Assembly (NCBI GenBank): GCA_032622095.1
Contig: CP136061.1
Coordinates: forward strand, 238,004,609 to 238,068,608
Length of the DNA: 64,000 nt
DNA from: Siphonodentalium dalli
Taxonomy: Eukaryota; Mollusca; Scaphopoda; Gadilida; Siphonodentaliidae
Direction of reading: 5' to 3'
Of the stretch, positions 5,314-63,483 are shown one piece after another. Position numbers and translations under genes: made by a program. The notes beneath the pieces were generated by a model that was given only the letters and a program-made list of their open reading frames with translations, was not told the origin of the DNA and ran no database searches. How positions within the stretch are numbered: the stretch's first letter is position 1; each line of letters opens with the position of its first letter.

Positions 5314-6211
5314 AAGGGAAAAGGTAGCTTTTTATCATTTTTGATTCCTGGGAGTCACTTTAAAGCATTTTAATGCATTTTACAGAGCCTGGTCTTTCAG
5401 TCCAATGAATATCTCATGCTTGATGTGGCTATTCTTGCTGCTGATGCTTTCTTTCACTTACATCAGCCAAAAAAATAGTAAGATTTTTCATAAAAAATGC
5501 CAATTTTTCAAGGTATTTTCAAAAAATTTCAAGGTGGTAATAGTCACATGATGATGCAAATGACCCATAACATGGGCATGTCAACGACACATATATCAAT
5601 TGTTATAAGAACCTAATTTAACAAGTATTTTGGATTTTATAGCCAGTGATATACAGATATATATCATAAAAGTGTGTCATTTCCACTGGTGGGTATGGTC
5701 ATTTGAAGGTTAATAGCACTAAAACTTGGACACATTTAAGAAAATGCTTCAGCAATTCAAAGAGAGCATATCTTTATTCAACTAATTCAATATACACCCA
5801 CATCCAGTTATCTTGGATCACCCTTGCAGACCTGAAAATGTCATATTTTATTCTTCAATGTGCTGATAAAGTCATGCGCTTGATGCTCAGCTGATCAGAT
5901 CTGGACTCAATGACCTCACATCACCAGAAGTTCTCTCATGGAAAGAATATTGAACAGTCTTCCATAGCTGATCCATGTATGCAACACCAGACCCCTAAAA
6001 CTGAGTGAAAATGGGGCCTGAACATGACTGGTGGTGGAAAATTGTGCTTTTTTGATGAATAATTTGTTAAAGGGGGTGGGGTTAAATTGTGTGTGATAAA
6101 TAAAGAACCACAGAAGTGATATTGTTTTTGAACACATTTTTTCCATTGATGGGTAATTCTGAAGAAATGTAGGGAGTTACAATTATTCCGCGAAAAAGCG
6201 GGCTATCGCTA
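5314..6211 (+). repeat. Satellite monomer 5, empty, 898 bp
   Basis: Private A to G at 5323. The right junction is shortened by two T (see 6207-6216). Confidence 0.97.
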
Positions 6212-6216
6212 AAGGG
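6207..6216. other. Empty-site variant CGC-TAAA-GGG (minus TT)
   Basis: The insertion site lacks two T compared with CGC-TTTAAA-GGG. It is the only copy of this form in the window. Confidence 0.8.
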
Positions 6217-7564
6217 AAAAAGTAGCTTTTTATCATTTTTGATTCCTGGGAGTCACTTTAAAGCATTTTAATGCATTTTACAGAGCCTGGTCTTTCAGTC
6301 CAATGAATATCTCATGCTTGATGTGGCTATTCTTGCTGCTGATGCTTTCTTTCACTTACATCAGCCAAAAAAATAGTAAGATTTTTCATAAAAAATGCCA
6401 ATTTTTCAAGGTATTTTCAAAAAATTTCAAGGTGGTAATAGTCACATGATGATGCAAATGACCCATAACATGGGCATGTCAACGACACATATATCAATTG
6501 TTATAAGAACCTAATTTAACAAGTATTTTGGATTTTATAGCCAGTGATATACAGATATATATCATAAAAGTGTGTCATTTCCACTGGTGGGTATGGTCAT
6601 TTGAAGGTTAATAGCACTAAAACTTGGACACATTTAAGAAAATGCTTCAGCAATTCAAAGAGAGCATATCTTTATTCAACTAATTCAATATACACCCACA
6701 TCCAGTTATCTTGGATCACCCTTGCAGACCTGAAAATGTCATATTTTATTCTTCAATGTGCTGATAAAGTCATGCGCTTGATGCTCAGCTGATCAGATCT
6801 GGACTCAATGACCTCACATCACCAGAAGTTCTCTCATGGAAAGAATATTGAACAGTCTTCCATAGCTGATCCATGTATGCAACACCAGACCCCTAAAACT
6901 GAGTGAAAATGGGGCCTGAACATGACTGGTGGTGGAAAATTGTGCTTTTTTGATGAATAATTTGTTAAAGGGGGTGGGGTTAAATTGTGTGTGATAAATA
7001 AAGAACCACAGAAGTGATATTGTTTTTGAACACATTTTTTCCATTGATGGGTAATTCTGAAGAAATGTAGGGAGTTACAATTATTCCGCGAAAAAGCGGG
7101 CTATCGCTTTAGGTTACACTGGTGTAAATAAGGTTCCGAGTGACATCTAGCGGATGCGGGAGGAATATATAGGAGAGAATAAAATAGACACTGGGCCCTG
7201 ATTGGTCAATAGCCTTGTGTGATTTTCACATAAAAAAATCATCACACCTCTTCCCTATGATTTCCCATAGGTAAAATAACCATTGGCACAGGAATTAACC
7301 CTTTGTAGTGAAGTTTGAATTTTTTGGTGTGGTCTAAAATATGACTGTATTTTTTTATGCGGTTCTGACACTAGTTACGAAAACATAAGATTTAAAGGCG
7401 AATTCCCTGCTAGACAGACATGATTTTTTTGTGTAAAAAGTTTCCCAAAATGTCAATTTTTAAGATTTAAAGAAAATTTTGGACCCAACATTTATATTGC
7501 CAACACTATACGCTAAAACGTTAGCACTGAGGCCTATGGAAAACATTTACACCAGTGTAACCTA
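6212..7564 (+). repeat. Satellite monomer 6, filled, 1353 bp
   Basis: First of twelve consecutive filled monomers. Confidence 0.97.
7112..7562. mobile_element. MITE copy in monomer 6
   Basis: 451 bp with standard junctions, although the junction at the left edge of this monomer is the TAAA variant. Confidence 0.85.
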
Positions 7565-8917
7565 AAGGGAAAAAGTAGCTTTTTATCATTTTTGATTCCT
7601 GGGAGTCACTTTAAAGCATTTTAATGCATTTTACAGAGCCTGGTCTTTCAGTCCAATGAATATCTCATGCTTGATGTGGCTATTCTTGCTGCTGATGCTT
7701 TCTTTCACTTACATCAGCCAAAAAAATAGTAAGATTTTTCATAAAAAATGCCAATTTTTCAAGGTATTTTCAAAAAATTTCAAGGTGGTAATAGTCACAT
7801 GATGATGCAAATGACCCATAACATGGGCATGTCAACGACACATATATCAATTGTTATAAGAACCTAATTTAACAAGTATTTTGGATTTTATAGCCAGTGA
7901 TATACAGATATATATCATAAAAGTGTGTCATTTCCACTGGTGGGTATGGTCATTTGAAGGTTAATAGCACTAAAACTTGGACACATTTAAGAAAATGCTT
8001 CAGCAATTCAAAGAGAGCATATCTTTATTCAACTAATTCAATATACACCCACATCCAGTTATCTTGGATCACCCTTGCAGACCTGAAAATGTCATATTTT
8101 ATTCTTCAATGTGCTGATAAAGTCATGCGCTTGATGCTCAGCTGATCAGATCTGGACTCAATGACCTCACATCACCAGAAGTTCTCTCATGGAAAGAATA
8201 TTGAACAGTCTTCCATAGCTGATCCATGTATGCAACACCAGACCCCTAAAACTGAGTGAAAATGGGGCCTGAACATGACTGGTGGTGGAAAATTGTGCTT
8301 TTTTGATGAATAATTTGTTAAAGGGGGTGGGGTTAAATTGTGTGTGATAAATAAAGAACCACAGAAGTGATATTGTTTTTGAACACATTTTTTCCATTGA
8401 TGGGTAATTCTGAAGAAATGTAGGGAGTTACAATTATTCCGCGAAAAAGCGGGCTATCGCTTTAGGTTACACTGGTGTAAATAAGGTTCCGAGTGACATC
8501 TAGCGGATGCGGGAGGAATATATAGGAGAGAATAAAATAGACACTGGGCCCTGATTGGTCAATAGCCTTGTGTGATTTTCACATAAAAAAATCATCACAC
8601 CTCTTCCCTATGATTTCCCATAGGTAAAATAACCATTGGCACAGGAATTAACCCTTTGTAGTGAAGTTTGAATTTTTTGGTGTGGTCTAAAATATGACTG
8701 TATTTTTTTATGCGGTTCTGACACTAGTTACGAAAACATAAGATTTAAAGGCGAATTCCCTGCTAGACAGACATGATTTTTTTGTGTAAAAAGTTTCCCA
8801 AAATGTCAATTTTTAAGATTTAAAGAAAATTTTGGACCCAACATTTATATTGCCAACACTATACGCTAAAACGTTAGCACTGAGGCCTATGGAAAACATT
8901 TACACCAGTGTAACCTA
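7565..8917 (+). repeat. Satellite monomer 7, filled, 1353 bp
   Basis: No variant noticed. Confidence 0.97.
8465..8915. mobile_element. MITE copy in monomer 7
   Basis: 451 bp, no variant noticed. Confidence 0.85.
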
Positions 8918-22458: not shown

Positions 22459-23357
22459 AAGGGAAAAAGTAGCTTTTTATCATTTTTTATTCCTGGGAGT
22501 CACTTTAAAGCATTTTAATGCATTTTACAGAGCCTGGTCTTTCAGTCCAATGAATATCTCATGCTTGATGTGGCTATTCTTGCTGCTGATGCTTTCTTTC
22601 ACTTACATCAGCCAAAAAAATAGTAAGATTTTTCATAAAAAATGCCAATTTTTCAAGGTATTTTCAAAAAATTTCAAGGTGGTAATAGTCACATGATGAT
22701 GCAAATGACCCATAACATGGGCATGTCAACGACACATATATCAATTGTTATAAGAACCTAATTTAACAAGTATTTTGGATTTTATAGCCAGTGATATACA
22801 GATATATATCATAAAAGTGTGTCATTTCCACTGGTGGGTATGGTCATTTGAAGGTTAATAGCACTAAAACTTGGACACATTTAAGAAAATGCTTCAGCAA
22901 TTCAAAGAGAGCATATCTTTATTCAACTAATTCAATATACACCCACATCCAGTTATCTTGGATCACCCTTGCAGACCTGAAAATGTCATATTTTATTCTT
23001 CAATGTGCTGATAAAGTCATGCGCTTGATGCTCAGCTGATCAGATCTGGACTCAATGACCTCACATCACCAGAAGTTCTCTCATGGAAAGAATATTGAAC
23101 AGTCTACCATAGCTGATCCATGTATGCAACACCAGACCCCTAAAACTGAGTGAAAATGGGGCCTGAACATGACTGGTGATGGAAAATTGTGCTTTTTTGA
23201 TGAATAATTTGTTAAAGGGGGTGGGGTTAAATTGTGTGTGATAAATAAAGAACCACAGAAGTGATATTGTTTTTGAACACATTTTTTCCATTGATGGGTA
23301 ATTCTGAAGAAATGTAGGGAGTTACAATTATTCCGCGAAAAAGCGGGCTATCGCTTT
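22459..23357 (+). repeat. Satellite monomer 18, empty, 899 bp
   Basis: Carries G to T at 22488 (private), T to A at 23106 (shared with monomer 19) and G to A at 23179, plus a TTTAA junction. The 23179 change and the junction form occur together in monomers 18, 19, 39 and 51 only. Confidence 0.97.
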
Positions 23358-23362
23358 AAGGG
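23352..23362. other. Empty-site variant CGC-TTTAA-GGG (minus A)
   Basis: One A is missing at the insertion site. It is linked to the G to A change 176 bp upstream at 23179. Confidence 0.8.
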
Positions 23363-24256: not shown

Positions 24257-24261
24257 AAGGG
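24251..24261. other. Empty-site variant CGC-TTTAA-GGG (minus A)
   Basis: Same form as in monomer 18. Confidence 0.8.
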
Positions 24262-42748: not shown

Positions 42749-43648
42749 AAGGGAAAAAGTAGCTTTTTATCATTTTTGATTCCTGGGAGTCACTTTAAAG
42801 CATTTTAATGCATTTTACAGAGCCTGGTCTTTCAGTCCAATGAATATCTCATGCTTGATGTGGCTATTCTTGCTGCTGATGCTTTCTTTCACTTACATCA
42901 GCCAAAAAAAATAGTAAGATTTTTCATAAAAAATGCCAATTTTTCAAGGTATTTTCAAAAAATTTCAAGGTGGTAATAGTCACATGATGATGCAAATGAC
43001 CCATAACATGGGCATGTCAACGACACATATATCAATTGTTATAAGAACCTAATTTAACAAGTATTTTGGATTTTATAGCCAGTGATATACAGATATATAT
43101 CATAAAAGTGTGTCATTTCCACTGGTGGGTATGGTCATTTGAAGGTTAATAGCACTAAAACTTGGACACATTTAAGAAAATGCTTCAGCAATTCAAAGAG
43201 AGCATATCTTTATTCAACTAATTCAATATACACCCACATCCAGTTATCTTGGATCACCCTTGCAGACCTGAAAATGTCATATTTTATTCTTCAATGTGCT
43301 GATAAAGTCATGCGCTTGATGCTCAGCTGATCAGATCTGGACTCAATGACCTCACATCACCAGAAGTTCTCTCATGGAAAGAATATTGAACAGTCTTCCA
43401 TAGCTGATCCATGTATGCAACACCAGACCCCTAAAACTGAGTGAAAATGGGGCCTGAACATGACTGGTGGTGGAAAATTGTGCTTTTTTGATGAATAATT
43501 TGTTAAAGGGGGTGGGGTTAAATTGTGTGTGATAAATAAAGAACCACAGAAGTGATATTGTTTTTGAACACATTTTTTCCATTGATGGGTAATTCTGAAG
43601 AAATGTAGGGAGTTACAATTATTCCGCGAAAAAGCGGGCTATCGCTTA
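42749..43648 (+). repeat. Satellite monomer 34, empty, 900 bp
   Basis: Eight-A tract (plus one) and a TTAAA junction (minus one) cancel to 900 bp. The eight-A allele is otherwise found only in filled monomers and in its partner, monomer 46. Confidence 0.97.
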
Positions 43649-43653
43649 AAGGG
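43643..43653. other. Empty-site variant CGC-TTAAA-GGG (minus T)
   Basis: One T is missing at the insertion site. Confidence 0.8.
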
Positions 43654-44548
43654 AAAAAGTAGCTTTTTATCATTTTTGATTCCTGGGAGTCACTTTAAAG
43701 CATTTTAATGCATTTTACAGAGCCTGGTCTTTCAGTCCAATGAATATCTCATGCTTGATGTGGCTATTCTTGCTGCTGATGCTTTCTTTCACTTACATCA
43801 GCCAAAAAAATAGTAAGATTTTTCATAAAAAATGCCAATTTTTCAAGGTATTTTCAAAAAATTTCAAGGTGGTAATAGTCACATGATGATGCAAATGACC
43901 CATAACATGGGCATGTCAACGACACATATATCAATTGTTATAAGAACCTAATTTAACAAGTATTTTGGATTTTATAGCCAGTGATATACAGATATATATC
44001 ATAAAAGTGTGTCATTTCCACTGGTGGGTATGGTCATTTGAAGGTTAATAGCACTAAAACTTGGACACATTTAAGAAAATGCTTCAGCAATTCAAAGAGA
44101 GCATATCTTTATTCAACTAATTCAATATACACCCACATCCAGTTATCTTGGATCACCCTTGCAGACCTGAAAATGTCATATTTTATTCTTCAATGTGCTG
44201 ATAAAGTCATGCGCTTGATGCTCAGCTGATCAGATCTGGACTCAATGACCTCACATCACCAGAAGTTCTCTCATGGAAAGAATATTGAACAGTCTTCCAT
44301 AGCTGATCCATGTATGCAACACCAGACCCCTAAAACTGAGTGAAAATGGGGCCTGAACATGACTGGTGGTGGAAAATTGTGCTTTTTTGATGAATAATTT
44401 GTTAAAGGGGGTGGGGTTAAATTGTGTGTGATAAATAAAGAACCACAGAAGTGATATTGTTTTTGAACACATTTTTTCCATTGATGGGTAATTCTGAAGA
44501 AATGTAGGGAGTTACAATTATTCCGCGAAAAAGCGGGCTATCGCTTTA
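43649..44548 (+). repeat. Satellite monomer 35, empty, 900 bp
   Basis: Seven-A tract and intact TTTAAA site. Partner of monomer 47. Confidence 0.97.
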
Positions 44549-45901
44549 AAGGGAAAAAGTAGCTTTTTATCATTTTTGATTCCTGGGAGTCACTTTAAAG
44601 CATTTTAATGCATTTTACAGAGCCTGGTCTTTCAGTCCAATGAATATCTCATGCTTGATGTGGCTATTCTTGCTGCTGATGCTTTCTTTCACTTACATCA
44701 GCCAAAAAAATAGTAAGATTTTTCATAAAAAATGCCAATTTTTCAAGGTATTTTCAAAAAATTTCAAGGTGGTAATAGTCACATGATGATGCAAATGACC
44801 CATAACATGGGCATGTCAACGACACATATATCAATTGTTATAAGAACCTAATTTAACAAGTATTTTGGATTTTATAGCCAGTGATATACAGATATATATC
44901 ATAAAAGTGTGTCATTTCCACTGGTGGGTATGGTCATTTGAAGGTTAATAGCACTAAAACTTGGACACATTTAAGAAAATGCTTCAGCAATTCAAAGAGA
45001 GCATATCTTTATTCAACTAATTCAATATACACCCACATCCAGTTATCTTGGATCACCCTTGCAGACCTGAAAATGTCATATTTTATTCTTCAATGTGCTG
45101 ATAAAGTCATGCGCTTGATGCTCAGCTGATCAGATCTGGACTCAATGACCTCACATCACCAGAAGTTCTCTCATGGAAAGAATATTGAACAGTCTTCCAT
45201 AGCTGATCCATGTATGCAACACCAGACCCCTAAAACTGAGTGAAAATGGGGCCTGAACATGACTGGTGGTGGAAAATTGTGCTTTTTTGATGAATAATTT
45301 GTTAAAGGGGGTGGGGTTAAATTGTGTGTGATAAATAAAGAACCACAGAAGTGATATTGTTTTTGAACACATTTTTTCCATTGATGGGTAATTCTGAAGA
45401 AATGTAGGGAGTTACAATTATTCCGCGAAAAAGCGGGCTATCGCTTTAGGTTACACTGGTGTAAATAAGGTTCCGAGTGACATCTAGCGGATGCGGGAGG
45501 AATATATAGGAGAGAATAAAATAGACACTGGGCCCTGATTGGTCAATAGCCTTGTGTGATTTTCACATAAAAAAATCATCACACCTCTTCCCTATGATTT
45601 CCCATAGGTAAAATAACCATTGGCACAGGAATTAACCCTTTGTAGTGAAGTTTGAATTTTTTGGTGTGGTCTAAAATATGACTGTATTTTTTTATGCGGT
45701 TCTGACACTAGTTACGAAAACATAAGATTTAAAGGCGAATTCCCTGCTAGACAGACATGATTTTTTTGTGTAAAAAGTTTCCCAAAATGTCAATTTTTAA
45801 GATTTAAAGAAAATTTTGGACCCAACATTTATATTGCCAACACTATACGCTAAAACGTTAGCACTGAGGCCTATGGAAAACATTTACACCAGTGTAACCT
45901 A
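44549..45901 (+). repeat. Satellite monomer 36, filled, 1353 bp
   Basis: Partner of monomer 48. Confidence 0.97.
45449..45899. mobile_element. MITE copy in monomer 36
   Basis: 451 bp, no variant noticed. Confidence 0.85.
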
Positions 45902-46801
45902 AAGGGAAAAAGTAGCTTTTTATCATTTTTGATTCCTGGGAGTCACTTTAAAGCATTTTAATGCATTTTACAGAGCCTGGTCTTTCAGTCCAATGAATAT
46001 CTCATGCTTGATGTGGCTATTCTTGCTGCTGATGCTTTCTTTCACTTACATCAGCCAAAAAAATAGTAAGATTTTTCATAAAAAATGCCAATTTTTCAAG
46101 GTATTTTCAAAAAATTTCAAGGTGGTAATAGTCACATGATGATGCAAATGACCCATAACATGGGCATGTCAACGACACATATATCAATTGTTATAAGAAC
46201 CTAATTTAACAAGTATTTTGGATTTTATAGCCAGTGATATACAGATATATATCATAAAAGTGTGTCATTTCCACTGGTGGGTATGGTCATTTGAAGGTTA
46301 ATAGCACTAAAACTTGGACACATTTAAGAAAATGCTTCAGCAATTCAAAGAGAGCATATCTTTATTCAACTAATTCAATATACACCCACATCCAGTTATC
46401 TTGGATCACCCTTGCAGACCTGAAAATGTCATATTTTATTCTTCAATGTGCTGATAAAGTCATGCGCTTGATGCTCAGCTGATCAGATCTGGACTCAATG
46501 ACCTCACATCACCAGAAGTTCTCTCATGGAAAGAATATTGAACAGTCTTCCATAGCTGATCCATGTATGCAACACCAGACCCCTAAAACTGAGTGAAAAT
46601 GGGGCCTGAACATGACTGGTGGTGGAAAATTGTGCTTTTTTGATGAATAATTTGTTAAAGGGGGTGGGGTTAAATTGTGTGTGATAAATAAAGAACCACA
46701 GAAGTGATATTGTTTTTGAACACATTTTTTCCATTGATGGGTAATTCTGAAGAAACGTAGGGAGTTACAATTATTCCGCGAAAAAGCGGGCTATCGCTTT
46801 A
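45902..46801 (+). repeat. Satellite monomer 37, empty, 900 bp
   Basis: Private T to C at 46756. Intact TTTAAA site. Partner of monomer 49, which lacks this change. Confidence 0.97.
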
Positions 46802-48154
46802 AAGGGAAAAAGTAGCTTTTTATCATTTTTGATTCCTGGGAGTCACTTTAAAGCATTTTAATGCATTTTACAGAGCCTGGTCTTTCAGTCCAATGAATAT
46901 CTCATGCTTGATGTGGCTATTCTTGCTGCTGATGCTTTCTTTCACTTACATCAGCCAAAAAAATAGTAAGATTTTTCATAAAAAATGCCAATTTTTCAAG
47001 GTATTTTCAAAAAATTTCAAGGTGGTAATAGTCACATGATGATGCAAATGACCCATAACATGGGCATGTCAACGACACATATATCAATTGTTATAAGAAC
47101 CTAATTTAACAAGTATTTTGGATTTTATAGCCAGTGATATACAGATATATATCATAAAAGTGTGTCATTTCCACTGGTGGGTATGGTCATTTGAAGGTTA
47201 ATAGCACTAAAACTTGGACACATTTAAGAAAATGCTTCAGCAATTCAAAGAGAGCATATCTTTATTCAACTAATTCAATATACACCCACATCCAGTTATC
47301 TTGGATCACCCTTGCAGACCTGAAAATGTCATATTTTATTCTTCAATGTGCTGATAAAGTCATGCGCTTGATGCTCAGCTGATCAGATCTGGACTCAATG
47401 ACCTCACATCACCAGAAGTTCTCTCATGGAAAGAATATTGAACAGTCTTCCATAGCTGATCCATGTATGCAACACCAGACCCCTAAAACTGAGTGAAAAT
47501 GGGGCCTGAACATGACTGGTGGTGGAAAATTGTGCTTTTTTGATGAATAATTTGTTAAAGGGGGTGGGGTTAAATTGTGTGTGATAAATAAAGAACCACA
47601 GAAGTGATATTGTTTTTGAACACATTTTTTCCATTGATGGGTAATTCTGAAGAAATGTAGGGAGTTACAATTATTCCGCGAAAAAGCGGGCTATCGCTTT
47701 AGGTTACACTGGTGTAAATAAGGTTCCGAGTGACATCTAGCGGATGCGGGAGGAATATATAGGAGAGAATAAAATAGACACTGGGCCCTGATTGGTCAAT
47801 AGCCTTGTGTGATTTTCACATAAAAAAATCATCACACCTCTTCCCTATGATTTCCCATAGGTAAAATAACCATTGGCACAGGAATTAACCCTTTGTAGTG
47901 AAGTTTGAATTTTTTGGTGTGGTCTAAAATATGACTGTATTTTTTTATGCGGTTCTGACACTAGTTACGAAAACATAAGATTTAAAGGCGAATTCCCTGC
48001 TAGACAGACATGATTTTTTTGTGTAAAAAGTTTCCCAAAATGTCAATTTTTAAGATTTAAAGAAAATTTTGGACCCAACATTTATATTGCCAACACTATA
48101 CGCTAAAACGTTAGCACTGAGGCCTATGGAAAACATTTACACCAGTGTAACCTA
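46802..48154 (+). repeat. Satellite monomer 38, filled, 1353 bp
   Basis: Partner of monomer 50. Confidence 0.97.
47702..48152. mobile_element. MITE copy in monomer 38
   Basis: 451 bp, no variant noticed. Confidence 0.85.
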
Positions 48155-49053
48155 AAGGGAAAAAGTAGCTTTTTATCATTTTTGATTCCTGGGAGTCACT
48201 TTAAAGCATTTTAATGCATTTTACAGAGCCTGGTCTTTCAGTCCAATGAATATCTCATGCTTGATGTGGCTATTCTTGCTGCTGATGCTTTCTTTCACTT
48301 ACATCAGCCAAAAAAATAGTAAGATTTTTCATAAAAAATGCCAATTTTTCAAGGTATTTTCAAAAAATTTCAAGGTGGTAATAGTCACATGATGATGCAA
48401 ATGACCCATAACATGGGCATGTCAACGACACATATATCAATTGTTATAAGAACCTAATTTAACAAGTATTTTGGATTTTATAGCCAGTGATATACAGATA
48501 TATATCATAAAAGTGTGTCATTTCCACTGGTGGGTATGGTCATTTGAAGGTTAATAGCACTAAAACTTGGACACATTTAAGAAAATGCTTCAGCAATTCA
48601 AAGAGAGCATATCTTTATTCAACTAATTCAATATACACCCACATCCAGTTATCTTGGATCACCCTTGCAGACCTGAAAATGTCATATTTTATTCTTCAAT
48701 GTGCTGATAAAGTCATGCGCTTGATGCTCAGCTGATCAGATCTGGACTCAATGACCTCACATCACCAGAAGTTCTCTCATGGAAAGAATATTGAACAGTC
48801 TTCCATAGCTGATCCATGTATGCAACACCAGACCCCTAAAACTGAGTGAAAATGGGGCCTGAACATGACTGGTGATGGAAAATTGTGCTTTTTTGATGAA
48901 TAATTTGTTAAAGGGGGTGGGGTTAAATTGTGTGTGATAAATAAAGAACCACAGAAGTGATATTGTTTTTGAACACATTTTTTCCATTGATGGGTAATTC
49001 TGAAGAAATGTAGGGAGTTACAATTATTCCGCGAAAAAGCGGGCTATCGCTTT
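48155..49053 (+). repeat. Satellite monomer 39, empty, 899 bp
   Basis: G to A at 48875 with the TTTAA junction. It lacks the T to A change found in monomers 18 and 19. Confidence 0.97.
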
Positions 49054-49058
49054 AAGGG
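49048..49058. other. Empty-site variant CGC-TTTAA-GGG (minus A)
   Basis: Same form as at 23352 and 24251, with the same linked G to A. Confidence 0.8.
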
Positions 49059-50406
49059 AAAAAGTAGCTTTTTATCATTTTTGATTCCTGGGAGTCACTT
49101 TAAAGCATTTTAATGCATTTTACAGAGCCTGGTCTTTCAGTCCAATGAATATCTCATGCTTGATGTGGCTATTCTTGCTGCTGATGCTTTCTTTCACTTA
49201 CATCAGCCAAAAAAATAGTAAGATTTTTCATAAAAAATGCCAATTTTTCAAGGTATTTTCAAAAAATTTCAAGGTGGTAATAGTCACATGATGATGCAAA
49301 TGACCCATAACATGGGCATGTCAACGACACATATATCAATTGTTATAAGAACCTAATTTAACAAGTATTTTGGATTTTATAGCCAGTGATATACAGATAT
49401 ATATCATAAAAGTGTGTCATTTCCACTGGTGGGTATGGTCATTTGAAGGTTAATAGCACTAAAACTTGGACACATTTAAGAAAATGCTTCAGCAATTCAA
49501 AGAGAGCATATCTTTATTCAACTAATTCAATATACACCCACATCCAGTTATCTTGGATCACCCTTGCAGACCTGAAAATGTCATATTTTATTCTTCAATG
49601 TGCTGATAAAGTCATGCGCTTGATGCTCAGCTGATCAGATCTGGACTCAATGACCTCACATCACCAGAAGTTCTCTCATGGAAAGAATATTGAACAGTCT
49701 TCCATAGCTGATCCATGTATGCAACACCAGACCCCTAAAACTGAGTGAAAATGGGGCCTGAACATGACTGGTGGTGGAAAATTGTGCTTTTTTGATGAAT
49801 AATTTGTTAAAGGGGGTGGGGTTAAATTGTGTGTGATAAATAAAGAACCACAGAAGTGATATTGTTTTTGAACACATTTTTTCCATTGATGGGTAATTCT
49901 GAAGAAATGTAGGGAGTTACAATTATTCCGCGAAAAAGCGGGCTATCGCTTTAGGTTACACTGGTGTAAATAAGGTTCCGAGTGACATCTAGCGGATGCG
50001 GGAGGAATATATAGGAGAGAATAAAATAGACACTGGGCCCTGATTGGTCAATAGCCTTGTGTGATTTTCACATAAAAAAATCATCACACCTCTTCCCTAT
50101 GATTTCCCATAGGTAAAATAACCATTGGCACAGGAATTAACCCTTTGTAGTGAAGTTTGAATTTTTTGGTGTGGTCTAAAATATGACTGTATTTTTTTAT
50201 GCGGTTCTGACACTAGTTACGAAAACATAAGATTTAAAGGCGAATTCCCTGCTAGACAGACATGATTTTTTTGTGTAAAAAGTTTCCCAAAATGTCAATT
50301 TTTAAGATTTAAAGAAAATTTTGGACCCAACATTTATATTGCCAACACTATACGCTAAAACGTTAGCACTGAGGCCTATGGAAAACATTTACACCAGTGT
50401 AACCTA
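49054..50406 (+). repeat. Satellite monomer 40, filled, 1353 bp
   Basis: First of six filled monomers that separate the marked parts of the two higher-order copies. Confidence 0.97.
49954..50404. mobile_element. MITE copy in monomer 40
   Basis: 451 bp, no variant noticed. Confidence 0.85.
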
Positions 50407-51759
50407 AAGGGAAAAAGTAGCTTTTTATCATTTTTGATTCCTGGGAGTCACTTTAAAGCATTTTAATGCATTTTACAGAGCCTGGTCTTTCAGTCCAATG
50501 AATATCTCATGCTTGATGTGGCTATTCTTGCTGCTGATGCTTTCTTTCACTTACATCAGCCAAAAAAATAGTAAGATTTTTCATAAAAAATGCCAATTTT
50601 TCAAGGTATTTTCAAAAAATTTCAAGGTGGTAATAGTCACATGATGATGCAAATGACCCATAACATGGGCATGTCAACGACACATATATCAATTGTTATA
50701 AGAACCTAATTTAACAAGTATTTTGGATTTTATAGCCAGTGATATACAGATATATATCATAAAAGTGTGTCATTTCCACTGGTGGGTATGGTCATTTGAA
50801 GGTTAATAGCACTAAAACTTGGACACATTTAAGAAAATGCTTCAGCAATTCAAAGAGAGCATATCTTTATTCAACTAATTCAATATACACCCACATCCAG
50901 TTATCTTGGATCACCCTTGCAGACCTGAAAATGTCATATTTTATTCTTCAATGTGCTGATAAAGTCATGCGCTTGATGCTCAGCTGATCAGATCTGGACT
51001 CAATGACCTCACATCACCAGAAGTTCTCTCATGGAAAGAATATTGAACAGTCTTCCATAGCTGATCCATGTATGCAACACCAGACCCCTAAAACTGAGTG
51101 AAAATGGGGCCTGAACATGACTGGTGGTGGAAAATTGTGCTTTTTTGATGAATAATTTGTTAAAGGGGGTGGGGTTAAATTGTGTGTGATAAATAAAGAA
51201 CCACAGAAGTGATATTGTTTTTGAACACATTTTTTCCATTGATGGGTAATTCTGAAGAAATGTAGGGAGTTACAATTATTCCGCGAAAAAGCGGGCTATC
51301 GCTTTAGGTTACACTGGTGTAAATAAGGTTCCGAGTGACATCTAGCGGATGCGGGAGGAATATATAGGAGAGAATAAAATAGACACTGGGCCCTGATTGG
51401 TCAATAGCCTTGTGTGATTTTCACATAAAAAAATCATCACACCTCTTCCCTATGATTTCCCATAGGTAAAATAACCATTGGCACAGGAATTAACCCTTTG
51501 TAGTGAAGTTTGAATTTTTTGGTGTGGTCTAAAATATGACTGTATTTTTTTATGCGGTTCTGACACTAGTTACGAAAACATAAGATTTAAAGGCGAATTC
51601 CCTGCTAGACAGACATGATTTTTTTGTGTAAAAAGTTTCCCAAAATGTCAATTTTTAAGATTTAAAGAAAATTTTGGACCCAACATTTATATTGCCAACA
51701 CTATACGCTAAAACGTTAGCACTGAGGCCTATGGAAAACATTTACACCAGTGTAACCTA
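50407..51759 (+). repeat. Satellite monomer 41, filled, 1353 bp
   Basis: No variant noticed. Confidence 0.97.
51307..51757. mobile_element. MITE copy in monomer 41
   Basis: 451 bp, no variant noticed. Confidence 0.85.
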
Positions 51760-53112
51760 AAGGGAAAAAGTAGCTTTTTATCATTTTTGATTCCTGGGAG
51801 TCACTTTAAAGCATTTTAATGCATTTTACAGAGCCTGGTCTTTCAGTCCAATGAATATCTCATGCTTGATGTGGCTATTCTTGCTGCTGATGCTTTCTTT
51901 CACTTACATCAGCCAAAAAAATAGTAAGATTTTTCATAAAAAATGCCAATTTTTCAAGGTATTTTCAAAAAATTTCAAGGTGGTAATAGTCACATGATGA
52001 TGCAAATGACCCATAACATGGGCATGTCAACGACACATATATCAATTGTTATAAGAACCTAATTTAACAAGTATTTTGGATTTTATAGCCAGTGATATAC
52101 AGATATATATCATAAAAGTGTGTCATTTCCACTGGTGGGTATGGTCATTTGAAGGTTAATAGCACTAAAACTTGGACACATTTAAGAAAATGCTTCAGCA
52201 ATTCAAAGAGAGCATATCTTTATTCAACTAATTCAATATACACCCACATCCAGTTATCTTGGATCACCCTTGCAGACCTGAAAATGTCATATTTTATTCT
52301 TCAATGTGCTGATAAAGTCATGCGCTTGATGCTCAGCTGATCAGATCTGGACTCAATGACCTCACATCACCAGAAGTTCTCTCATGGAAAGAATATTGAA
52401 CAGTCTTCCATAGCTGATCCATGTATGCAACACCAGACCCCTAAAACTGAGTGAAAATGGGGCCTGAACATGACTGGTGGTGGAAAATTGTGCTTTTTTG
52501 ATGAATAATTTGTTAAAGGGGGTGGGGTTAAATTGTGTGTGATAAATAAAGAACCACAGAAGTGATATTGTTTTTGAACACATTTTTTCCATTGATGGGT
52601 AATTCTGAAGAAATGTAGGGAGTTACAATTATTCCGCGAAAAAGCGGGCTATCGCTTTAGGTTACACTGGTGTAAATAAGGTTCCGAGTGACATCTAGCG
52701 GATGCGGGAGGAATATATAGGAGAGAATAAAATAGACACTGGGCCCTGATTGGTCAATAGCCTTGTGTGATTTTCACATAAAAAAATCATCACACCTCTT
52801 CCCTATGATTTCCCATAGGTAAAATAACCATTGGCACAGGAATTAACCCTTTGTAGTGAAGTTTGAATTTTTTGGTGTGGTCTAAAATATGACTGTATTT
52901 TTTTATGCGGTTCTGACACTAGTTACGAAAACATAAGATTTAAAGGCGAATTCCCTGCTAGACAGACATGATTTTTTTGTGTAAAAAGTTTCCCAAAATG
53001 TCAATTTTTAAGATTTAAAGAAAATTTTGGACCCAACATTTATATTGCCAACACTATACGCTAAAACGTTAGCACTGAGGCCTATGGAAAACATTTACAC
53101 CAGTGTAACCTA
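51760..53112 (+). repeat. Satellite monomer 42, filled, 1353 bp
   Basis: No variant noticed. Confidence 0.97.
52660..53110. mobile_element. MITE copy in monomer 42
   Basis: 451 bp, no variant noticed. Confidence 0.85.
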
Positions 53113-54466
53113 AAGGGAAAAAGTAGCTTTTTATCATTTTTGATTCCTGGGAGTCACTTTAAAGCATTTTAATGCATTTTACAGAGCCTGGTCTTTCAGT
53201 CCAATGAATATCTCATGCTTGATGTGGCTATTCTTGCTGCTGATGCTTTCTTTCACTTACATCAGCCAAAAAAAATAGTAAGATTTTTCATAAAAAATGC
53301 CAATTTTTCAAGGTATTTTCAAAAAATTTCAAGGTGGTAATAGTCACATGATGATGCAAATGACCCATAACATGGGCATGTCAACGACACATATATCAAT
53401 TGTTATAAGAACCTAATTTAACAAGTATTTTGGATTTTATAGCCAGTGATATACAGATATATATCATAAAAGTGTGTCATTTCCACTGGTGGGTATGGTC
53501 ATTTGAAGGTTAATAGCACTAAAACTTGGACACATTTAAGAAAATGCTTCAGCAATTCAAAGAGAGCATATCTTTATTCAACTAATTCAATATACACCCA
53601 CATCCAGTTATCTTGGATCACCCTTGCAGACCTGAAAATGTCATATTTTATTCTTCAATGTGCTGATAAAGTCATGCGCTTGATGCTCAGCTGATCAGAT
53701 CTGGACTCAATGACCTCACATCACCAGAAGTTCTCTCATGGAAAGAATATTGAACAGTCTTCCATAGCTGATCCATGTATGCAACACCAGACCCCTAAAA
53801 CTGAGTGAAAATGGGGCCTGAACATGACTGGTGGTGGAAAATTGTGCTTTTTTGATGAATAATTTGTTAAAGGGGGTGGGGTTAAATTGTGTGTGATAAA
53901 TAAAGAACCACAGAAGTGATATTGTTTTTGAACACATTTTTTCCATTGATGGGTAATTCTGAAGAAATGTAGGGAGTTACAATTATTCCGCGAAAAAGCG
54001 GGCTATCGCTTTAGGTTACACTGGTGTAAATAAGGTTCCGAGTGACATCTAGCGGATGCGGGAGGAATATATAGGAGAGAATAAAATAGACACTGGGCCC
54101 TGATTGGTCAATAGCCTTGTGTGATTTTCACATAAAAAAATCATCACACCTCTTCCCTATGATTTCCCATAGGTAAAATAACCATTGGCACAGGAATTAA
54201 CCCTTTGTAGTGAAGTTTGAATTTTTTGGTGTGGTCTAAAATATGACTGTATTATTTTATGCGGTTCTGACACTAGTTACGAAAACATAAGATTTAAAGG
54301 CGAATTCCCTGCTAGACAGACATGATTTTTTTGTGTAAAAAGTTTCCCAAAATGTCAATTTTTAAGATTTAAAGAAAATTTTGGACCCAACATTTATATT
54401 GCCAACACTATACGCTAAAACGTTAGCACTGAGGCCTATGGAAAACATTTACACCAGTGTAACCTA
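53113..54466 (+). repeat. Satellite monomer 43, filled, 1354 bp
   Basis: Eight-A tract. Partner of monomer 30. Confidence 0.97.
54014..54464. mobile_element. MITE copy in monomer 43, T to A variant
   Basis: T to A at 54254, element position 241, as in monomer 30. Confidence 0.85.
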
Positions 54467-55819
54467 AAGGGAAAAAGTAGCTTTTTATCATTTTTGATTC
54501 CTGGGAGTCACTTTAAAGCATTTTAATGCATTTTACAGAGCCTGGTCTTTCAGTCCAATGAATATCTCATGCTTGATGTGGCTATTCTTGCTGCTGATGC
54601 TTTCTTTCACTTACATCAGCCAAAAAAATAGTAAGATTTTTCATAAAAAATGCCAATTTTTCAAGGTATTTTCAAAAAATTTCAAGGTGGTAATAGTCAC
54701 ATGATGATGCAAATGACCCATAACATGGGCATGTCAACGACACATATATCAATTGTTATAAGAACCTAATTTAACAAGTATTTTGGATTTTATAGCCAGT
54801 GATATACAGATATATATCATAAAAGTGTGTCATTTCCACTGGTGGGTATGGTCATTTGAAGGTTAATAGCACTAAAACTTGGACACATTTAAGAAAATGC
54901 TTCAGCAATTCAAAGAGAGCATATCTTTATTCAACTAATTCAATATACACCCACATCCAGTTATCTTGGATCACCCTTGCAGACCTGAAAATGTCATATT
55001 TTATTCTTCAATGTGCTGATAAAGTCATGCGCTTGATGCTCAGCTGATCAGATCTGGACTCAATGACCTCACATCACCAGAAGTTCTCTCATGGAAAGAA
55101 TATTGAACAGTCTTCCATAGCTGATCCATGTATGCAACACCAGACCCCTAAAACTGAGTGAAAATGGGGCCTGAACATGACTGGTGGTGGAAAATTGTGC
55201 TTTTTTGATGAATAATTTGTTAAAGGGGGTGGGGTTAAATTGTGTGTGATAAATAAAGAACCACAGAAGTGATATTGTTTTTGAACACATTTTTTCCATT
55301 GATGGGTAATTCTGAAGAAATGTAGGGAGTTACAATTATTCCGCGAAAAAGCGGGCTATCGCTTTAGGTTACACTGGTGTAAATAAGGTTCCGAGTGACA
55401 TCTAGCGGATGCGCGAGGAATATATAGGAGAGAATAAAATAGACACTGGGCCCTGATTGGTCAATAGCCTTGTGTGATTTTCACATAAAAAAATCATCAC
55501 ACCTCTTCCCTATGATTTCCCATAGGTAAAATAACCATTGGCACAGGAATTAACCCTTTGTAGTGAAGTTTGAATTTTTTGGTGTGGTCTAAAATATGAC
55601 TGTATTTTTTTATGCGGTTCTGACACTAGTTACGAAAACATAAGATTTAAAGGCGAATTCCCTGCTAGACAGACATGATTTTTTTGTGTAAAAAGTTTCC
55701 CAAAATGTCAATTTTTAAGATTTAAAGAAAATTTTGGACCCAACATTTATATTGCCAACACTATACGCTAAAACGTTAGCACTGAGGCCTATGGAAAACA
55801 TTTACACCAGTGTAACCTA
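54467..55819 (+). repeat. Satellite monomer 44, filled, 1353 bp
   Basis: Counterpart of both monomers 31 and 32. Confidence 0.97.
55367..55817. mobile_element. MITE copy in monomer 44, G to C variant
   Basis: G to C at 55414, element position 48. Confidence 0.85.
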
Positions 55820-57173
55820 AAGGGAAAAAGTAGCTTTTTATCATTTTTGATTCCTGGGAGTCACTTTAAAGCATTTTAATGCATTTTACAGAGCCTGGTC
55901 TTTCAGTCCAATGAATATCTCATGCTTGATGTGGCTATTCTTGCTGCTGATGCTTTCTTTCACTTACATCAGCCAAAAAAAATAGTAAGATTTTTCATAA
56001 AAAATGCCAATTTTTCAAGGTATTTTCAAAAAATTTCAAGGTGGTAATAGTCACATGATGATGCAAATGACCCATAACATGGGCATGTCAACGACACATA
56101 TATCAATTGTTATAAGAACCTAATTTAACAAGTATTTTGGATTTTATAGCCAGTGATATACAGATATATATCATAAAAGTGTGTCATTTCCACTGGTGGG
56201 TATGGTCATTTGAAGGTTAATAGCACTAAAACTTGGACACATTTAAGAAAATGCTTCAGCAATTCAAAGAGAGCATATCTTTATTCAACTAATTCAATAT
56301 ACACCCACATCCAGTTATCTTGGATCACCCTTGCAGACCTGAAAATGTCATATTTTATTCTTCAATGTGCTGATAAAGTCATGCGCTTGATGCTCAGCTG
56401 ATCAGATCTGGACTCAATGACCTCACATCACCAGAAGTTCTCTCATGGAAAGAATATTGAACAGTCTTCCATAGCTGATCCATGTATGCAACACCAGACC
56501 CCTAAAACTGAGTGAAAATGGGGCCTGAACATGACTGGTGGTGGAAAATTGTGCTTTTTTGATGAATAATTTGTTAAAGGGGGTGGGGTTAAATTGTGTG
56601 TGATAAATAAAGAACCACAGAAGTGATATTGTTTTTGAACACATTTTTTCCATTGATGGGTAATTCTGAAGAAATGTAGGGAGTTACAATTATTCCGCGA
56701 AAAAGCGGGCTATCGCTTTAGGTTACACTGGTGTAAATAAGGTTCCGAGTGACATCTAGCGGATGCGGGAGGAATATATAGGAGAGAATAAAATAGACAC
56801 TGGGCCCTGATTGGTCAATAGCCTTGTGTGATTTTCACATAAAAAAATCATCACACCTCTTCCCTATGATTTCCCATAGGTAAAATAACCATTGGCACAG
56901 GAATTAACCCTTTGTAGTGAAGTTTGAATTTTTTGGTGTGGTCTAAAATATGACTGTATTTTTTTATGCGGTTCTGACACTAGTTACGAAAACATAAGAT
57001 TTAAAGGCGAATTCCCTGCTAGACAGACATGATTTTTTTGTGTAAAAAGTTTCCCAAAATGTCAATTTTTAAGATTTAAAGAAAATTTTGGACCCAACAT
57101 TTATATTGCCAACACTATACGCTAAAACGTTAGCACTGAGGCCTATGGAAAACATTTACACCAGTGTAACCTA
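55820..57173 (+). repeat. Satellite monomer 45, filled, 1354 bp
   Basis: Eight-A tract. Partner of monomer 33. Confidence 0.97.
56721..57171. mobile_element. MITE copy in monomer 45
   Basis: 451 bp, no variant noticed. Confidence 0.85.
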
Positions 57174-58073
57174 AAGGGAAAAAGTAGCTTTTTATCATTT
57201 TTGATTCCTGGGAGTCACTTTAAAGCATTTTAATGCATTTTACAGAGCCTGGTCTTTCAGTCCAATGAATATCTCATGCTTGATGTGGCTATTCTTGCTG
57301 CTGATGCTTTCTTTCACTTACATCAGCCAAAAAAAATAGTAAGATTTTTCATAAAAAATGCCAATTTTTCAAGGTATTTTCAAAAAATTTCAAGGTGGTA
57401 ATAGTCACATGATGATGCAAATGACCCATAACATGGGCATGTCAACGACACATATATCAATTGTTATAAGAACCTAATTTAACAAGTATTTTGGATTTTA
57501 TAGCCAGTGATATACAGATATATATCATAAAAGTGTGTCATTTCCACTGGTGGGTATGGTCATTTGAAGGTTAATAGCACTAAAACTTGGACACATTTAA
57601 GAAAATGCTTCAGCAATTCAAAGAGAGCATATCTTTATTCAACTAATTCAATATACACCCACATCCAGTTATCTTGGATCACCCTTGCAGACCTGAAAAT
57701 GTCATATTTTATTCTTCAATGTGCTGATAAAGTCATGCGCTTGATGCTCAGCTGATCAGATCTGGACTCAATGACCTCACATCACCAGAAGTTCTCTCAT
57801 GGAAAGAATATTGAACAGTCTTCCATAGCTGATCCATGTATGCAACACCAGACCCCTAAAACTGAGTGAAAATGGGGCCTGAACATGACTGGTGGTGGAA
57901 AATTGTGCTTTTTTGATGAATAATTTGTTAAAGGGGGTGGGGTTAAATTGTGTGTGATAAATAAAGAACCACAGAAGTGATATTGTTTTTGAACACATTT
58001 TTTCCATTGATGGGTAATTCTGAAGAAATGTAGGGAGTTACAATTATTCCGCGAAAAAGCGGGCTATCGCTTA
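57174..58073 (+). repeat. Satellite monomer 46, empty, 900 bp
   Basis: Eight-A tract and TTAAA junction. Partner of monomer 34. Confidence 0.97.
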
Positions 58074-58078
58074 AAGGG
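58068..58078. other. Empty-site variant CGC-TTAAA-GGG (minus T)
   Basis: Same form as at 43643, at the higher-order offset of 14425 bp. Confidence 0.8.
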
Positions 58079-58973
58079 AAAAAGTAGCTTTTTATCATTT
58101 TTGATTCCTGGGAGTCACTTTAAAGCATTTTAATGCATTTTACAGAGCCTGGTCTTTCAGTCCAATGAATATCTCATGCTTGATGTGGCTATTCTTGCTG
58201 CTGATGCTTTCTTTCACTTACATCAGCCAAAAAAATAGTAAGATTTTTCATAAAAAATGCCAATTTTTCAAGGTATTTTCAAAAAATTTCAAGGTGGTAA
58301 TAGTCACATGATGATGCAAATGACCCATAACATGGGCATGTCAACGACACATATATCAATTGTTATAAGAACCTAATTTAACAAGTATTTTGGATTTTAT
58401 AGCCAGTGATATACAGATATATATCATAAAAGTGTGTCATTTCCACTGGTGGGTATGGTCATTTGAAGGTTAATAGCACTAAAACTTGGACACATTTAAG
58501 AAAATGCTTCAGCAATTCAAAGAGAGCATATCTTTATTCAACTAATTCAATATACACCCACATCCAGTTATCTTGGATCACCCTTGCAGACCTGAAAATG
58601 TCATATTTTATTCTTCAATGTGCTGATAAAGTCATGCGCTTGATGCTCAGCTGATCAGATCTGGACTCAATGACCTCACATCACCAGAAGTTCTCTCATG
58701 GAAAGAATATTGAACAGTCTTCCATAGCTGATCCATGTATGCAACACCAGACCCCTAAAACTGAGTGAAAATGGGGCCTGAACATGACTGGTGGTGGAAA
58801 ATTGTGCTTTTTTGATGAATAATTTGTTAAAGGGGGTGGGGTTAAATTGTGTGTGATAAATAAAGAACCACAGAAGTGATATTGTTTTTGAACACATTTT
58901 TTCCATTGATGGGTAATTCTGAAGAAATGTAGGGAGTTACAATTATTCCGCGAAAAAGCGGGCTATCGCTTTA
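58074..58973 (+). repeat. Satellite monomer 47, empty, 900 bp
   Basis: Intact TTTAAA site. Partner of monomer 35. Confidence 0.97.
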
Positions 58974-60326
58974 AAGGGAAAAAGTAGCTTTTTATCATTT
59001 TTGATTCCTGGGAGTCACTTTAAAGCATTTTAATGCATTTTACAGAGCCTGGTCTTTCAGTCCAATGAATATCTCATGCTTGATGTGGCTATTCTTGCTG
59101 CTGATGCTTTCTTTCACTTACATCAGCCAAAAAAATAGTAAGATTTTTCATAAAAAATGCCAATTTTTCAAGGTATTTTCAAAAAATTTCAAGGTGGTAA
59201 TAGTCACATGATGATGCAAATGACCCATAACATGGGCATGTCAACGACACATATATCAATTGTTATAAGAACCTAATTTAACAAGTATTTTGGATTTTAT
59301 AGCCAGTGATATACAGATATATATCATAAAAGTGTGTCATTTCCACTGGTGGGTATGGTCATTTGAAGGTTAATAGCACTAAAACTTGGACACATTTAAG
59401 AAAATGCTTCAGCAATTCAAAGAGAGCATATCTTTATTCAACTAATTCAATATACACCCACATCCAGTTATCTTGGATCACCCTTGCAGACCTGAAAATG
59501 TCATATTTTATTCTTCAATGTGCTGATAAAGTCATGCGCTTGATGCTCAGCTGATCAGATCTGGACTCAATGACCTCACATCACCAGAAGTTCTCTCATG
59601 GAAAGAATATTGAACAGTCTTCCATAGCTGATCCATGTATGCAACACCAGACCCCTAAAACTGAGTGAAAATGGGGCCTGAACATGACTGGTGGTGGAAA
59701 ATTGTGCTTTTTTGATGAATAATTTGTTAAAGGGGGTGGGGTTAAATTGTGTGTGATAAATAAAGAACCACAGAAGTGATATTGTTTTTGAACACATTTT
59801 TTCCATTGATGGGTAATTCTGAAGAAATGTAGGGAGTTACAATTATTCCGCGAAAAAGCGGGCTATCGCTTTAGGTTACACTGGTGTAAATAAGGTTCCG
59901 AGTGACATCTAGCGGATGCGGGAGGAATATATAGGAGAGAATAAAATAGACACTGGGCCCTGATTGGTCAATAGCCTTGTGTGATTTTCACATAAAAAAA
60001 TCATCACACCTCTTCCCTATGATTTCCCATAGGTAAAATAACCATTGGCACAGGAATTAACCCTTTGTAGTGAAGTTTGAATTTTTTGGTGTGGTCTAAA
60101 ATATGACTGTATTTTTTTATGCGGTTCTGACACTAGTTACGAAAACATAAGATTTAAAGGCGAATTCCCTGCTAGACAGACATGATTTTTTTGTGTAAAA
60201 AGTTTCCCAAAATGTCAATTTTTAAGATTTAAAGAAAATTTTGGACCCAACATTTATATTGCCAACACTATACGCTAAAACGTTAGCACTGAGGCCTATG
60301 GAAAACATTTACACCAGTGTAACCTA
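58974..60326 (+). repeat. Satellite monomer 48, filled, 1353 bp
   Basis: Partner of monomer 36. Confidence 0.97.
59874..60324. mobile_element. MITE copy in monomer 48
   Basis: 451 bp, no variant noticed. Confidence 0.85.
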
Positions 60327-61226
60327 AAGGGAAAAAGTAGCTTTTTATCATTTTTGATTCCTGGGAGTCACTTTAAAGCATTTTAATGCATTTTACAGAG
60401 CCTGGTCTTTCAGTCCAATGAATATCTCATGCTTGATGTGGCTATTCTTGCTGCTGATGCTTTCTTTCACTTACATCAGCCAAAAAAATAGTAAGATTTT
60501 TCATAAAAAATGTCAATTTTTCAAGGTATTTTCAAAAAATTTCAAGGTGGTAATAGTCACATGATGATGCAAATGACCCATAACATGGGCATGTCAACGA
60601 CACATATATCAATTGTTATAAGAACCTAATTTAACAAGTATTTTGGATTTTATAGCCAGTGATATACAGATATATATCATAAAAGTGTGTCATTTCCACT
60701 GGTGGGTATGGTCATTTGAAGGTTAATAGCACTAAAACTTGGACACATTTAAGAAAATGCTTCAGCAATTCAAAGAGAGCATATCTTTATTCAACTAATT
60801 CAATATACACCCACATCCAGTTATCTTGGATCACCCTTGCAGACCTGAAAATGTCATATTTTATTCTTCAATGTGCTGATAAAGTCATGCGCTTGATGCT
60901 CAGCTGATCAGATCTGGACTCAATGACCTCACATCACCAGAAGTTCTCTCATGGAAAGAATATTGAACAGTCTTCCATAGCTGATCCATGTATGCAACAC
61001 CAGACCCCTAAAACTGAGTGAAAATGGGGCCTGAACATGACTGGTGGTGGAAAATTGTGCTTTTTTGATGAATAATTTGTTAAAGGGGGTGGGGTTAAAT
61101 TGTGTGTGATAAATAAAGAACCACAGAAGTGATATTGTTTTTGAACACATTTTTTCCATTGATGGGTAATTCTGAAGAAATGTAGGGAGTTACAATTATT
61201 CCGCGAAAAAGCGGGCTATCGCTTTA
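60327..61226 (+). repeat. Satellite monomer 49, empty, 900 bp
   Basis: Private C to T at 60513. Intact TTTAAA site. Confidence 0.97.
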
Positions 61227-62579
61227 AAGGGAAAAAGTAGCTTTTTATCATTTTTGATTCCTGGGAGTCACTTTAAAGCATTTTAATGCATTTTACAGAG
61301 CCTGGTCTTTCAGTCCAATGAATATCTCATGCTTGATGTGGCTATTCTTGCTGCTGATGCTTTCTTTCACTTACATCAGCCAAAAAAATAGTAAGATTTT
61401 TCATAAAAAATGCCAATTTTTCAAGGTATTTTCAAAAAATTTCAAGGTGGTAATAGTCACATGATGATGCAAATGACCCATAACATGGGCATGTCAACGA
61501 CACATATATCAATTGTTATAAGAACCTAATTTAACAAGTATTTTGGATTTTATAGCCAGTGATATACAGATATATATCATAAAAGTGTGTCATTTCCACT
61601 GGTGGGTATGGTCATTTGAAGGTTAATAGCACTAAAACTTGGACACATTTAAGAAAATGCTTCAGCAATTCAAAGAGAGCATATCTTTATTCAACTAATT
61701 CAATATACACCCACATCCAGTTATCTTGGATCACCCTTGCAGACCTGAAAATGTCATATTTTATTCTTCAATGTGCTGATAAAGTCATGCGCTTGATGCT
61801 CAGCTGATCAGATCTGGACTCAATGACCTCACATCACCAGAAGTTCTCTCATGGAAAGAATATTGAACAGTCTTCCATAGCTGATCCATGTATGCAACAC
61901 CAGACCCCTAAAACTGAGTGAAAATGGGGCCTGAACATGACTGGTGGTGGAAAATTGTGCTTTTTTGATGAATAATTTGTTAAAGGGGGTGGGGTTAAAT
62001 TGTGTGTGATAAATAAAGAACCACAGAAGTGATATTGTTTTTGAACACATTTTTTCCATTGATGGGTAATTCTGAAGAAATGTAGGGAGTTACAATTATT
62101 CCGCGAAAAAGCGGGCTATCGCTTTAGGTTACACTGGTGTAAATAAGGTTCCGAGTGACATCTAGCGGATGCGGGAGGAATATATAGGAGAGAATAAAAT
62201 AGACACTGGGCCCTGATTGGTCAATAGCCTTGTGTGATTTTCACATAAAAAAATCATCACACCTCTTCCCTATGATTTCCCATAGGTAAAATAACCATTG
62301 GCACAGGAATTAACCCTTTGTAGTGAAGTTTGAATTTTTTGGTGTGGTCTAAAATATGACTGTATTTTTTTATGCGGTTCTGACACTAGTTACGAAAACA
62401 TAAGATTTAAAGGCGAATTCCCTGCTAGACAGACATGATTTTTTTGTGTAAAAAGTTTCCCAAAATGTCAATTTTTAAGATTTAAAGAAAATTTTGGACC
62501 CAACATTTATATTGCCAACACTATACGCTAAAACGTTAGCACTGAGGCCTATGGAAAACATTTACACCAGTGTAACCTA
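61227..62579 (+). repeat. Satellite monomer 50, filled, 1353 bp
   Basis: Partner of monomer 38. Confidence 0.97.
62127..62577. mobile_element. MITE copy in monomer 50
   Basis: 451 bp, last copy in the window. Confidence 0.85.
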
Positions 62580-63478
62580 AAGGGAAAAAGTAGCTTTTTA
62601 TCATTTTTGATTCCTGGGAGTCACTTTAAAGCATTTTAATGCATTTTACAGAGCCTGGTCTTTCAGTCCAATGAATATCTCATGCTTGATGTGGCTATTC
62701 TTGCTGCTGATGCTTTCTTTCACTTACATCAGCCAAAAAAATAGTAAGATTTTTCATAAAAAATGCCAATTTTTCAAGGTATTTTCAAAAAATTTCAAGG
62801 TGGTAATAGTCACATGATGATGCAAATGACCCATAACATGGGCATGTCAACGACACATATATCAATTGTTATAAGAACCTAATTTAACAAGTATTTTGGA
62901 TTTTATAGCCAGTGATATACAGATATATATCATAAAAGTGTGTCATTTCCACTGGTGGGTATGGTCATTTGAAGGTTAATAGCACTAAAACTTGGACACA
63001 TTTAAGAAAATGCTTCAGCAATTCAAAGAGAGCATATCTTTATTCAACTAATTCAATATACACCCACATCCAGTTATCTTGGATCACCCTTGCAGACCTG
63101 AAAATGTCATATTTTATTCTTCAATGTGCTGATAAAGTCATGCGCTTGATGCTCAGCTGATCAGATCTGGACTCAATGACCTCACATCACCAGAAGTTCT
63201 CTCATGGAAAGAATATTGAACAGTCTTCCATAGCTGATCCATGTATGCAACACCAGACCCCTAAAACTGAGTGAAAATGGGGCCTGAACATGACTGGTGA
63301 TGGAAAATTGTGCTTTTTTGATGAATAATTTGTTAAAGGGGGTGGGGTTAAATTGTGTGTGATAAATAAAGAACCACAGAAGTGATATTGTTTTTGAACA
63401 CATTTTTTCCATTGATGGGTAATTCTGAAGAAATGTAGGGAGTTACAATTATTCCGCGAAAAAGCGGGCTATCGCTTT
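62580..63478 (+). repeat. Satellite monomer 51, empty, 899 bp
   Basis: G to A at 63300 with the TTTAA junction. Partner of monomer 39. Confidence 0.97.
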
Positions 63479-63483
63479 AAGGG
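63473..63483. other. Empty-site variant CGC-TTTAA-GGG (minus A)
   Basis: Fourth copy of this form, 14425 bp from the one at 49048. Confidence 0.8.

Follow-up and report, generated by a model that had tools for sequence, protein, structure and literature searches.

Small indels cluster at the empty insertion sites of a MITE-like element in a satellite array of the scaphopod Siphonodentalium dalli

Introduction

When some monomers of a satellite array carry an inserted element and others are empty at the same position, the question arises whether the empty monomers never had the element or have lost it. We addressed this question in a 64,000-bp stretch of the S. dalli genome (hereafter the window), whose empty monomers had been interpreted in a first-pass annotation as possible scars of repeated loss. 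Satellite arrays are in effect a natural replicate experiment on the loss of small transposons, with dozens of near-identical copies of the same site; should reads bear out the scars, one array would allow the rates at which elements are lost and the DNA mutates or duplicates to be compared with one another.

The satellite array and its insert

The entire window (1–64000) is a single satellite array that extends beyond both window ends and contains 52 insertion sites, 37 filled and 15 empty, located between 894-bp cores (for example, 4416–5309). Monomers are 1353–1360 bp long if filled and 898–900 bp if empty. Ten places were found to vary among the 51 complete cores and the partial one that closes the array at the right, which was excluded from counts where its bases are missing; its left-hand counterpart (1–803), also partial, has no variants. 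The core indels are exactly the two kinds listed in the first-pass annotation, an A7/A8 tract (eight A in 7 copies) and a 7-bp tandem duplication in one copy. A third indel outside the junctions, a 4-bp tandem duplication (21067), lies within one insert and not in the core.

The insert is 451 bp long (455 bp in one copy; example at 3961–4411) and MITE-like, with inverted repeats GGTTACACTGGTGTAAAT...ATTTACACCAGTGTAACC and a TA duplication, inside TTTA...TAAA (3957–3960 and 4412–4415 in the example). The filled junctions, TTTAGGTT...AACCTAAA, are uniform in all 37 copies, down to the terminal bases and the TA duplication, and none of the 37 inserts is internally deleted. The inverted repeat extends into the flank: its 26-nt left arm (3953–3978, plus strand) is 96% complementary to the right arm (4394–4419, minus strand), and folding of 3957–4415 as a single strand predicts a stem of 22 bp into which TTTA/TAAA is drawn (z = −3.67 relative to 100 shuffles, a value that covers the whole insert and not the stem alone).

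The insert shows the TA target site duplication of Tc1/mariner (Stowaway-like) elements (TTTA[451 bp]TAAA versus the commonest empty form, TTTAAA), as well as their terminal inverted repeats (TIRs) and lack of coding capacity: among the ORFs listed for positions 3000–5300, none of at least 50 aa lies inside the insert and the longest, of 76 aa, is located in the core, the remaining monomers being near-identical. The footprint of this group, TA followed by 2–3 TIR bases and another TA, was found at none of the 15 empty sites, which weighs against excision by a Tc1/mariner-type transposase but not against such an origin of the insert. The best explanation of the element is that it is non-autonomous, MITE-like and amplified along with its satellite monomer.

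The array also contains a tandem duplication of 13 monomers, whose period is 15,778 bp. Its first copy spans 33616–49393 and its second starts at 49394 (49394–64000 in the window), although the similarity of the monomers leaves the exact ends ambiguous. Because the second copy is shorter by one filled monomer, it lies for the most part at an offset of 14,425. Two SNPs separate the paired stretches, and the paired sites agree in filled or empty state and in junctions in 12 cases out of 12. No loss is directly seen, as there is no pair of marked sister monomers that differ in state and none of the 12 paired sites has changed since the duplication.

Forms and origins of the empty sites

A recount of the window agreed with the first-pass annotation both on the 37 uniform filled junctions and on the four forms of the 15 empty sites. 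TTTAAA is found at eight sites (2157–2162 and sites starting at 3057, 5310, 27859, 44545, 46798, 58970 and 61223), TTTAA at four (23355–23359 and starts at 24254, 49051 and 63476), TTAAA at two (43646–43650 and its tandem-duplication copy starting at 58071) and TAAA at a single site (6210–6213). The three deviant forms are confined to empty sites, with none among the 37 filled ones (P = 0.024 by copy, 0.005 by boundary).

All four TTTAA sites are preceded, at a distance of 176 bp, by a G>A SNP (core position 719) that is seen in 0 of the 47 other complete cores (chance 4e-6) and is the sole SNP shared by every copy of a deviant form; TTTAA therefore arose once. Both TTAAA sites are copies within the tandem duplication and have one origin. 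With the single TAAA, and with duplication allowed for, this makes three origins, in agreement with the earlier claim of at least three separate indels within six bases. The other variants in the cores next to deviant sites are one at position 646, found at two of the four TTTAA sites, the eight-A tract, which precedes each TTAAA site, and one at position 8 of the core preceding TAAA, at the end away from that site.

Empty monomers are not clustered along the array, with 5 adjacent pairs for 15 empty sites out of 52 (p = 0.37) and 4 for the 11 empty sites among the first 40 (p = 0.27). The eight-A allele occurs at 7 of 37 filled and 0 of 15 empty sites (p = 0.09), a link that was not used.

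All four empty forms can be written as joins of the flanks with 1–2 bp of microhomology. None of the 15 empty sites has a TIR-base footprint or a doubled TA and, as the first-pass annotation had noted, the usual Tc1/mariner footprint of TIR bases between two TAs is absent from every one of them. If only the flanks are joined and at most four bases are lost, nine products are possible, five with microhomology and four without. The observed forms are four of the five microhomology joins; the fifth is absent, as are all four products without microhomology, including the double TA, TTTATAAA. A post hoc hand count gives 5/126 = 0.04 for this pattern, a value that is not independent of the reading by contraction: TTTAA, TTAAA and TAAA are equally well described as TTTAAA shortened by one or two bases, and the letters would be the same whether a filled site lost its element or an empty site shrank later. 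The eight TTTAAA sites may predate the insertion or result from gene conversion.

Junction indels against the background

The 64-kb window contains three indel events at the junctions and three others, namely the A7/A8 tract, which is possibly recurrent, and the 7-bp and 4-bp tandem duplications. Three of these six events fall within 90 of the 64,000 bp (binomial 5.5e-8, or 1.5e-7 with the A tract counted as three events). The first-pass annotation had suggested a comparison with other AT-rich hexamers, and TTTAAA itself serves for this: it is found at three other places in the array, where 126 of 126 copies are intact (one being touched by the 7-bp duplication), against three origins at the insertion site. 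Of these copies, 52 belong to the 8-mer CTTTAAAG, which lies ∼ 40 bp from the site. Fisher tests of three origins among 15 empty sites gave 0.001 against 0 of the 126 other TTTAAA copies and 0.0095 against 0 of the 52 CTTTAAAG copies, and these values are guides only, as origins are being compared with copies that are related and the site was picked because of the finding. One of the 52 CTTTAAAG controls shares its first bases with the 7-bp duplication, which weakens the 8-mer control a little; if the duplication is counted as a change, the values become 0.004 (hexamer) and 0.033 (8-mer). Chance as the source of the junction indels was ruled out by the hexamer and 8-mer controls. The junction indels are clustered far above background, have three origins and are sited only at the position of the element, so the process behind them is likely to be tied to the element.

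Possible explanations of the empty sites

Among the explanations considered, the most likely is deletion of the element as a hairpin or loop, with excision by a transposase in second place. We tentatively favour, with less than even confidence, an imprecise loss that takes place at the base of a hairpin or loop formed by the inverted repeats, via microhomology and without a transposase. The inverted repeats, lengthened by the palindromic target (CTTTA/TAAAG), would pair as a hairpin when single-stranded; alternatively, the insert could loop out when filled and empty monomers pair in recombination. The hairpin or loop would be removed during replication or recombination of the array and the flanks rejoined via the short microhomology (1–2 bp) that surrounds the TA duplication. 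Precise rejoining would give TTTAAA and imprecise rejoining, with one or two further bases lost, TTTAA, TTAAA or TAAA; later duplication of array segments would copy each scar. In vitro, slippage at a hairpin flanked by short direct repeats has been described (PMC4134008).

The forms, their three origins, the clustering at the junctions, the microhomology joins, the predicted stem and the tandem duplication are what the analysis shows; they speak for this account, as do the near-site variants (see below) and the rearrangement of the array. That the change was a loss of the element and that a transposase was unnecessary is what we infer. Against hairpin loss stand the contraction reading, the lack of any change of state at 12 paired sites, the shortness of the microhomology (1–2 bp), the small number of near-site variants and the value of 0.033 that the 8-mer control gives if the 7-bp duplication is counted.

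Alternatively, a transposase acting in trans might have excised the element, the ends being trimmed or paired by TA before end joining, so that a precise join gave TTTAAA and other joins one or two bases fewer. We consider this doubtful. It would agree with the identity of the terminal bases and TA duplication in all filled copies, and non-canonical footprints with gaps have been reported for mariner-type transposases, although the one studied is held, in the text available from PMC3770610, to be not fully functional; excision as proposed in an excerpt of PMC4561436 for Tourist-like MITEs, with cuts within the duplication and microhomology repair, would also fit the products seen here. However, the TA duplication suggests a Tc1/mariner-like element, and these usually leave TIR bases (PMC7827188 and PMC4561436, in the portions at hand), which no empty site has; no transposase gene was seen in the array, where the longest ORF listed for 3000–5300 is the 76-aa one in the core; and internally deleted inserts are absent. 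It is less likely still that TTTAAA is the pre-insertion form and that sites already empty were later contracted by slippage, perhaps while paired with a filled monomer. Every deviant form does shorten the T or the A run of TTTAAA, and TTTAAA is the commonest form (8 of 15), but plain slippage leaves unexplained why none of the 126 controls, 52 of them within the same 8-mer, is contracted. Contraction thus requires a filled partner or some other local cause, which involves the element again.

An ancestral target-site polymorphism that predates the insertion is improbable, because the cores next to deviant forms have hardly diverged, with a single SNP shared by all copies of a form and few others, and older lineages should carry more. 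We give even less credence to an assembly or consensus error. The array is nearly uniform and TAAA is seen once, as such an error would allow, but TTTAA travels with a SNP 176 bp away in four cases out of four, and errors should strike longer runs first, whereas among 4574 runs of at least three bases the seven-A tract alone varies by a gained or lost base outside the junctions (tandem duplications apart).

The idea that the empty monomers are scars of loss is therefore upheld in part: clustered, element-linked indels of three origins fit it, but the TTTAAA sites may have other histories and contraction would leave the same sequences. 'Repeated' loss would mean at least three events; there is no sign of a high rate, as judged from the 12 paired sites. 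As to the routes proposed in the first-pass annotation, deletion of the inverted-repeat structure with microhomology is the one we prefer, and transposase cutting fares worse for lack of a footprint at any of the 15 sites and of an internally deleted insert among the 37.

Related systems and database searches

Stowaway-like MITEs and Tc1/mariner elements share with the insert the TA target duplication, short TIRs and the lack of a long ORF. Unlike them, the insert has a TIR (GGTTACAC...) that was matched here to no named family, and its empty sites are without the TIR-base footprint that PMC4561436, in the excerpt at hand, calls usual for the group; Mos1 excision leaves a 3-base overhang according to the available part of PMC4505599. 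The duplication of Tourist-like MITEs (mPing, PIF/Harbinger) is 3 bp (TTA/TAA), whereas in the insert the left TTA and right TAA form no direct repeat and TA alone is repeated. mPing ends in GG...CC, as does the insert. Tourist-like MITEs further resemble the present case in footprint-free joins via microhomology in the duplication, for which the authors propose cuts in the duplication and repair that leaves no TIR bases (PMC4561436, same excerpt). In the systems of slippage at hairpins with short direct repeats, deletion would likewise stop at the base of the inverted repeat (PMC4134008, passages available), but the direct repeat here is just 2 bp and the insert is 451 bp long and located in a satellite array.

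Positions 3000–5000 (2001 bases) had no match in phages or plasmids, four short patterns were not found in viral contigs and Rfam gave no match up to E = 1 for 2150–5400. An 18-mer of the TIR occurs in four bacterial contigs, and was dismissed, as seven or eight occurrences are expected by chance (257 billion bases, two strands). Among papers on MITEs or transposons in satellites, none matched this case by title or opening of the abstract, which does not imply that it is unpublished, and the listed literature matches to sequence words were unrelated by title and opening of the abstract. PMC5874043, from the satellite papers, deals, as far as its available text goes, with a bivalve and with its repeats and MITE-like element.

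Variants near the insertion site

Five of the nine core variants (A tract apart) lie within 42 bp of the site, at core positions 8, 28, 38.5, 853 and 873 of 894. They are a SNP at 5323, 8 bp from an empty site, and the variants at 14370 (the 7-bp duplication), 22488, 28737/30090 and 46756; three of these events are next to filled sites (14370, 22488 and 28737/30090) and two next to empty ones (5323 and 46756). This crowding gave 0.007 in the sum test, 0.02 with SNPs alone, 0.004 in the free-window test and 0.038 for any 90-bp window, values that stem from nine events only and from a 42-bp bound set after the variants had been seen. The A7/A8 tract was omitted from the main distance test (p = 0.007) and its restoration as a check also gave p = 0.007. 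Two of the three insert variants are within 48 bp of the insert ends (distances include 211 and 33.5), and the distance test on core plus insert gave p = 0.010.

The crowding fits less well with excision alone than with a structure that interferes with replication or repair there, although nine events are few. Conceivably, but improbably, the insert is inherently unstable and its hairpin makes filled sites weak spots that are subject to imprecise loss and nearby mutation, so that elements would be shed without a transposase and the scars kept. Substitutions raised close to indels are also described in the available parts of PMC3114760 and PMC5127803, the former of which attributes such clusters to local repeat sequence and error-prone polymerases and not to the indel; the variants seen here differ in that they lie inside one array, between neighbouring monomers, and represent few events.

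The short tandem duplications at 14370 (7 bp, core) and 21067 (4 bp, insert) are both within ∼ 40 bp of an insert end. In the stretch 39585–43645, we compared an insert SNP at element position 48 with the A7/A8 tract: all four combinations of the two are present in the array, which therefore points to gene conversion or recurrent slippage.
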